Assembly (NCBI GenBank): GCA_024349765.1
Contig: AP026073.1
Location: 7,626,001 to 7,690,000 of the forward strand
DNA: 64,000 nucleotides
Origin: Streptomyces nigrescens
GTDB lineage: Bacteria; Actinomycetota; Actinomycetes; Streptomycetales; Streptomycetaceae
Direction of reading: 5' to 3'
The translations under genes and the position numbers were made by a program. The notes beneath the pieces were generated by a model. That model worked only from the letters and a program-made list of their open reading frames with translations. It did no database searches and was not told the origin of the DNA. Below are positions 4,957 through 5,090 of the stretch, piece by piece. Position 1 is the first letter of the stretch; each line of letters starts with the position of its first letter.

Positions 4957-5090
4957 CTCCCTACGCCGGCATTACCCGGTAACAGGTTCGGCGGTCGACG
5001 CAGCGGTATCCGTCCTCCGGTGTTTCACGTGAAACACGGTGGGGACGAAGGTCAGCGCCCTCTCAGCCCGGTGCTCCGAGCTCCCGCGAT
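4957..5090 (-). promoter_or_regulatory. TPP riboswitch (thi-box) controlling thiC, with a parS site in its variable stem
   Basis: Reading the minus strand there is GCGGGAGCTCGG, then CTGAGAGGG (CTGAGA at 5061-5066), an insert, then CGAACCTG (4983-4990), and TAATGCCGGCGTAGGGAG adjoining the thiC ribosome-binding site. These are the two conserved halves of the TPP aptamer in the right order and orientation, immediately before thiC. The insert between the halves (about 5011-5047) forms an additional hairpin: CGTCC at one end pairs with GGACG at the other, and its tip is the perfect parS palindrome at 5022-5035. Confidence 0.93.
5022..5035. other. parS site (inside TPP riboswitch stem)
   Basis: Exact GTTTCACGTGAAAC, extended by one pair to a 16-bp palindrome and, allowing the flanking G/C, to GTG...CAC. 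It is the ParB-binding site of Streptomyces. Its position within the transcribed aptamer of thiC is unusual (see findings). Confidence 0.95.

Follow-up and report, generated by a model that had tools for sequence, protein, structure and literature searches.

A parS palindrome at the tip of the P3a stem of the predicted thiC TPP riboswitch in Streptomyces

The window, that is, the whole stretch of 64,000 nucleotides of Streptomyces nigrescens DNA that was analysed, contains a thiC gene on the minus strand, a YibE/F-like gene that diverges from it and a parB gene. The letters of the thiC leader and of the thiC coding sequence place the window among named Streptomyces. The leader lies between thiC and the YibE/F-like gene, and at its two ends a promoter-like site and a putative ribosome-binding sequence are found:

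3157..4947, minus strand: thiC, phosphomethylpyrimidine synthase (NCBIfam NF006763, 983.3 bits; Pfam PF01964)
4958..4962, minus strand: GGGAG, Shine-Dalgarno candidate of thiC by sequence, at the 3′ end of the aptamer and 10 nt before the ATG
5106..5135, minus strand: promoter-like site of thiC (TGTTCA at 5135-5130, 18-nt spacer, TACCGT at 5111-5106)
5119..6903, plus strand: YibE/F-like gene, divergent from thiC (PF07907, 238.9 bits; start codon uncertain, maybe further downstream)
61337..62449, minus strand: parB (Pfam ParB_N, HTH_ParB and ParB_C; TIGR00180)

Letters similar to TGTTCAC and TAGCGT recur in the consensus of 212 thiC leaders. Transcription of thiC would start near the promoter-like site at 5135-5106, and this would place within the transcribed leader a parS sequence that lies about 70-84 bp downstream of the -10-like hexamer. 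At the other end, GGGAG at 4962-4958 is the likely Shine-Dalgarno sequence of thiC, judging from its letters and position.

Most of the leader can be assigned to a TPP riboswitch aptamer, into which parS is inserted. Specifically, the following elements are recognized, the helices of the aptamer being taken from the RF00059 alignment:

4953..5092, minus strand: TPP riboswitch aptamer of thiC (RF00059, E 8.8e-8, 44.2 bits, below the gathering score)
5092-5088 with 4957-4953, minus strand: aptamer P1
5087-5084 with 4994-4991, minus strand: aptamer P2
5081-5066, minus strand: aptamer P3, followed by CUGAGA at 5066-5061 and by P4/P5 at 4986-4960
4997..5059, minus strand: P3a stem (Rfam alignment; pairing counted on 34 distinct leaders)
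5059-5055 with 5001-4997, minus strand: basal helix of P3a, GGCGC/GCGUC (Rfam alignment)
5049-5043 with 5015-5009, minus strand: distal helix of P3a (Rfam alignment and the 34 leaders)
5039-5018, minus strand: parS hairpin of P3a plus flanking pairs, one of which, C-C, is broken in the window
5022..5035, no strand assigned: parS, the exact 14-bp palindrome GTTTCACGTGAAAC with 0 mismatches; as RNA, the apical hairpin of P3a, with five base pairs and the loop ACGU

A permissive Rfam search detects RF00059 at 4941-5097, and the match spans the full model (positions 1-105). At the gathering threshold of 54.3 bits nothing is reported in the thiC leader, as the score lies below that value. Nevertheless, the assignment to the TPP riboswitches was kept because of the E value, the completeness of the model and the identity of the downstream gene, thiC, which belongs to thiamine synthesis. 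The whole conserved core is present in the window leader, including CUGAGA, P2, P3, P4, P5 and GCGUAGGGA. In addition, a low score need not indicate decay, as all 20 further Streptomyces thiC leaders scanned with the same model (9 with parS or near-parS and 11 without parS) range from 38.6 to 47.5 bits and are likewise below threshold. In other words, the gathering score misses all 21 Streptomyces thiC aptamers tested, so that default annotation may overlook the thiC riboswitches of this genus. The leader is predicted to bind TPP and to control thiC. The whole genome contains four TPP riboswitches as far as detected, and the other three hold no exact parS, since all of them sit outside the zone in which exact parS occurs.

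The initial annotation had described an exact parS palindrome between the two halves of a TPP aptamer, forming the apex of its variable stem. Its coordinates are confirmed on the minus strand, where CTGAGA is found at 5066-5061, parS GTTTCACGTGAAAC at 5035-5022, GAACCTG at 4989-4983 and TAATGCCGGCGTAGGGAG at 4975-4958. When the minus-strand RNA is aligned to the TPP covariance model, the insert holding parS is kept in the optional stem of the aptamer rather than excluded from it; more precisely, it lies in P3a, between CUGAGA and the 3′ strand of P2 and outside the ligand-binding core. P3a is an optional element, present in 552 TPP sequences and missing from 355 in the survey of PMC2258182, and the TPP riboswitch structures discussed there are without it.

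Folding of the leader RNA gives a robust hairpin at parS and a less certain aptamer around it. The five parS pairs have probabilities of 0.996-1.0 in the unconstrained ensemble and still form when the aptamer core is imposed, whereas the basal pairs of P3a reach only about 0.06, because the minimum-energy fold differs from the aptamer fold. Imposing the aptamer core costs 3.2 kcal/mol with respect to the free minimum of the leader, and the parS hairpin is found in both folds. The overall stability of the leader is unremarkable when compared with shuffled sequences (z -0.86).

At the DNA level, the site belongs to a dense family of identical sequences. Allowing up to 2 mismatches, the window contains 23 parS matches, 22 of them exact and one with 1 mismatch, whereas 100 dinucleotide shuffles of the window contain 0.06 on average and 1 at most. 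The genome as a whole has 46 exact parS, all within C1:7613125-7947347 of 9.33 Mb, so that parS forms one cluster that includes parB. Hence the parS of the thiC leader is not there by chance. The nearest companion is 7.9 kb away:

12905..12937, no strand assigned: next parS cluster, composed of an exact parS and GTTCCACGTGAAAC

The second member of this cluster is the other strand of GTTTCACGTGGAAC, a variant common in thiC leaders. Some further properties of the parS set can be recorded here. An exact parS at 62253-62266 falls within the coding region of parB, and five exact copies stand in tandem at 48787-48968, with starts 53, 38, 38 and 39 bp apart, just past the 3′ end of a minus-strand ORF (48970-50448); in the other tandem parS of the genome, spacings of 19-24 bp and of 38-39 bp recur. 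The cluster, at 7.61-7.95 Mb, lies well away from the middle of the 9.33-Mb two-contig assembly. The parS sites of S. coelicolor were reportedly described by Jakimowicz in 2002. According to PMC8743542, the predicted parS of 20 closed Streptomyces genomes number from 11 to 65 (11-65), with a mean of 22.8, in comparison with which 46 exact copies is a high number.

As 21 of the 23 parS sites of the window are intergenic by crude gene calls, one of them might simply hit a leader, and the arrangement could be a coincidence in which parS fell by chance into the riboswitch of one lineage. This explanation is extremely improbable, being contradicted by the recurrence of the arrangement across the genus. 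In particular, 176 of 392 Streptomyces genomes searched with a pattern carry parS or one of the one-letter variants A11G (GTTTCACGTGGAAC) and G8A (GTTTCACATGAAAC) in this stem; the pattern left the first letter open, fixed 13 of the 14 letters and required the site 9-61 nt before the GCTGCG..GAACCTG of the aptamer's 3′ half. Conservation in other Streptomyces, which the initial annotation had named as a check, is borne out by these genomes, yet the site is absent from many that keep the riboswitch. The exact sequence is carried by a minority, 16 of 286 genomes (19 matches, the other 3 being the mirror form T4C), most carriers having a one-letter variant; the two genome sets overlap yet differ, and shared descent inflates the variant counts. 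A scan of a named collection for exact parS only returned 35 loci, all from Streptomyces by title and including S. lydicus, S. noursei, S. natalensis, S. chattanoogensis and S. seoulensis; S. venezuelae and S. coelicolor are not among these 35 titles. Outside the genus, 354 genomes from 136 further genera of the class gave no match to a pattern that omitted G8A and allowed 12-42 nt between the site and GAACCTG, and a search of 80 genomes from 16 further genera of the family found no such site either.

Many Streptomyces, on the other hand, keep the thiC riboswitch with a P3a that is free of parS and made of unrelated stems, as in 32 of 101 chosen leaders; that is, the switch has no need of parS. 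Three genomes with such a P3a have 14, 14 and 15 exact parS, the nearest being 9.7, 0.5 and 10.7 kb from the leader, respectively. Where the site is present, it mostly starts 25 nt past CTGAGA (20-31 nt in leaders with a single unit). Among 216 leaders, no parS with 0-1 mismatch occurs within 170 nt before CTGAGA, a stretch of which less than 95 nt is readable in 4 of them, or within 400 nt past the aptamer. These 216 are the sum of 101, 35 and 80 leaders, and some named and unnamed entries represent the same genome. Leaders were fetched among the matches listed, which were about 150 places for the 277 matching genomes in one pattern search and likewise a part of the matches in the search of 392 genomes, and most were selected for a near-exact parS; for this reason part of the parS conservation among them is due to selection, and proportions are not frequencies. 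In an early pattern search, 21 of 33 places have the thiC tail, and the remaining 12 looked unrelated on inspection and were set aside. By hand comparison of two tables, about 40 of the 392 genomes match neither leader pattern; in 12 of these unmatched genomes no degenerate long P3a stem was found with a pattern that took inserts of up to 97 nt and so excluded the class of 101-105 nt.

The distribution on thiC trees also speaks against coincidence, as the lineages with the site are separated by parS-free leaders. Specifically, on a tree of 204 distinct rows the parS-like P3a needs 4 changes, at least 2 of which are forced by well-supported branches; on an earlier tree of 135 rows, well-supported branches force 3. 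The trees do not separate gain from loss of the parS-like P3a. The letters GTCCCAGCG, shared around the site in separate lineages, give a hint of an old origin with later losses.

The initial annotation had attributed a double duty to the palindrome, as DNA for ParB and as an RNA hairpin, and the two halves of this claim fare differently: the RNA side is well supported, by covariation, and the DNA side is likely, on the evidence of the unit contrast and of the clustering of A11G in the parS region discussed below. In 34 distinct single-unit leaders, 97.2% of cells are paired according to a structure made of the Rfam core and P3a, as against 34-47% when partners are slid by 1-3 columns. Changes in both partners are seen at six pairs, of which four belong to the distal helix and two adjoin parS, and the flanks of parS appear as GGT/ACC, GGC/GCC, GAT/ATC, GAA/TTC and GAG/CTC. 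The covariation score was reached by 0 of 500 shuffles, which ignore relatedness; two weaker measures, the number of double-change pairs and the number of pair types, were reached by 14 and 77 of 500, respectively. The inner two pairs of the distal helix are not formed in 14 and 13 of the 34 leaders, respectively. P2, P3, P4 and P5 are invariant in these leaders and, being without variation, neither support nor oppose the structure. RNAalifold alone recovers the parS hairpin together with the distal helix and folds the core otherwise; its preference for another core fold, shared by the free minimum, counts against the double reading of the site. Taken as a whole, the alignment indicates that the distal P3a stem around parS covaries as RNA.

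The one-letter variants bear on whether the letters are also kept for the DNA. A11G turns a U-A pair into U-G and G8A falls in the loop, so both preserve the RNA hairpin. To a symmetric DNA site the mirror changes would be equivalent, yet they are rare: among 286 genomes, 3 carry T4C and 0 carry C7T. A possibility is that only the hairpin matters, that is, that the tip derives from parS, that its use by ParB was lost in most genomes and that the RNA stem was retained. Besides the strand bias, this is favoured by G8A, which disrupts the centre of the palindrome and, among the 204 distinct rows of the thiC tree, is the best form in 39, and by the G that stands opposite each of the three T4C units in the partner unit. 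The more restricted idea that A11G is kept for the RNA alone, its mirror never being allowed, is weakened by the occurrence of T4C in three genomes.

An RNA hairpin alone, however, leaves unexplained the recurrence of GTTTCACGTGGAAC elsewhere in the parS region. Of the 52 copies of A11G found in 14 genomes, 44 are no more than 350 kb from the thiC leader; the rest comprise 4 towards the opposite end of the record, 2 at a distance of 436-452 kb and 2 that are megabases distant. Moreover, in 9 of the 9 searched genomes with GTTTCACGTGGAAC in the fetched leader, a second copy is located 7.2-7.8 kb upstream of it, a position that corresponds to the 12905-12937 cluster of the window. The pattern is weaker for G8A: of the 18 copies that 12 genomes contain, the leader accounts for 12 and a single further place for the other 6; this extra GTTTCACATGAAAC lies 46-47 kb from thiC in 6 of 12 complete leader-carrying genomes, and the variant is found nowhere else in them. 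A11G and G8A are candidate ParB sites. That most carriers have a one-letter variant, and that G8A has a single further place, count against a continued use of the site as DNA.

A second line of evidence comes from leaders whose P3a contains two units. The set comprises 89 distinct leaders with inserts of 92 and 101-105 nt only, the units being cut at fixed offsets. Unit 1 has 6 forms and is within one mismatch of parS in 88 of the 89, whereas unit 2 has 40 forms and is that close in 9; the 40 are slightly overcounted, since 5 of the 89 second units have 7-10 letters that depart from parS and are probably out of register. In the only leader with a decayed unit 1 (L070), it is unit 2 that takes the form GTTCCACGTGAAAC, a parS with 1 mismatch. 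As nearly all leaders were picked for a near-exact unit, the meaningful part of these figures is the contrast between the units, together with the swap in L070.

Pairing between the two units is possible as well. Where position 11 of unit 1 meets position 4 of unit 2, the letters are A-T in 36 leaders, G-C in 32, G-T in 19 and A-C in 2, a compensation significant by Fisher's test without phylogeny (p 1e-8); in an independent-pairs test on well-supported branches, with four pairs only, a mean of 2.7 of 4 pairs is for and 0 against (p 0.25). Letters thus seem to change along paths that would preserve both the likeness to parS and the hairpin. Three leaders of named Streptomyces (L144, L146 and L173) have two exact parS in P3a, 19-22 bp apart, and in the first two of them these fold together as one long hairpin.

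Retention of the RNA stem alone does not account for 6 forms of unit 1 against 40 of unit 2, nor for the presence of exact parS, twice in the three named leaders just mentioned, and other Streptomyces use unrelated stems in its place. Considering both sides, it is unlikely that in most genomes the site now acts only as a hairpin. The probable explanation, in our opinion, is that one sequence has two readings, as parS DNA for ParB and as the apical hairpin of P3a in the RNA; one sequence can serve both because a palindrome is automatically a hairpin. As double-stranded DNA, the site would belong to the numerous parS of the Streptomyces origin region and serve as a loading place for ParB, whose binding here is predicted from the letters of the site. 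As RNA, the same letters would fold into the apical hairpin of an optional stem of the TPP aptamer. Binding of TPP would then close the aptamer over GGGAG at 4962-4958 and most likely cover the ribosome-binding site of thiC, a form of control that PMC2258182 calls frequent in Actinobacteria. P3a may have been used since little other non-coding DNA separates the two genes, and parS would thus be lodged in the part of the leader that accepts very different hairpins. That is, P3a could accommodate parS and leave the conserved core unharmed because the palindrome makes a hairpin in RNA and P3a tolerates varied ones.

Functional coupling of the DNA and RNA readings is no requirement of this explanation. 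Nonetheless, in line with the coupling proposed in the initial annotation, ParB bound in the transcribed leader and spreading from it could lower thiC transcription by roadblock or silencing, or thiC transcription could clear ParB, in which case thiamine synthesis would follow segregation or sporulation. Such coupling draws on the location of parS with respect to the -10-like hexamer and on the reach of ParB: the ParB signal of S. venezuelae extends 2.5-3 kb on either side of parS (PMC12511625), so that the leader and the start of thiC would be under ParB if the site is used. The review PMC7022226 reports that ParB effects on nearby genes vary between species, with precedents both ways: genes are affected in connection with parS3/parS4 of P. 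aeruginosa and at comCDE of S. pneumoniae, while transcriptome changes upon ParB loss are minor in the species treated before P. aeruginosa, in which 1166 genes change. On balance coupling is rather unlikely, as no dedicated link is visible in the sequence and the thiC riboswitch is kept without parS in many Streptomyces, including the 32 of 101 leaders of the chosen sample. It is quite unlikely, too, that the locus represents a combined centromere-riboswitch element in which ParB loading and TPP-controlled expression of thiC would affect each other in the course of growth or sporulation.

The reading of the site as both parS and P3a hairpin joins two known kinds of elements. As in other TPP riboswitches (THI element, RF00059), the leader has all core parts, a position upstream of thiC and a likely ribosome-binding site at the 3′ end, but its P3a carries a centromere-type site. 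As with the origin-region parS of Streptomyces (ParABS), the sequence is exact and belongs to one cluster with parB nearby, but this copy sits inside a structured regulatory RNA. With parS3/parS4 of P. aeruginosa and parS(-1.6)/comCDE of S. pneumoniae, as presented in PMC7022226, it shares the proximity of a ParB site to a gene; unlike them, it is predicted to be transcribed within an aptamer and is not known to affect expression. No report of an overlap between parS and a riboswitch was found in the titles and abstract beginnings listed for papers on ParB or parS, a search that covered few subscription papers, and the overlap appears to be new as a recurrent element of the genus.

In conclusion, 176 of 392 Streptomyces genomes have a centromere-type DNA site and a metabolite-sensing RNA written in the same letters, either as exact parS or one change away from it. 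These shared letters offer a natural test of how selection at the DNA level and at the RNA level combine on one sequence, and the case shows that ParB sites can hide within regulatory RNA. Moreover, a likely ParB loading site within the transcript of a core metabolic gene would make an effect of chromosome segregation on metabolism directly testable.
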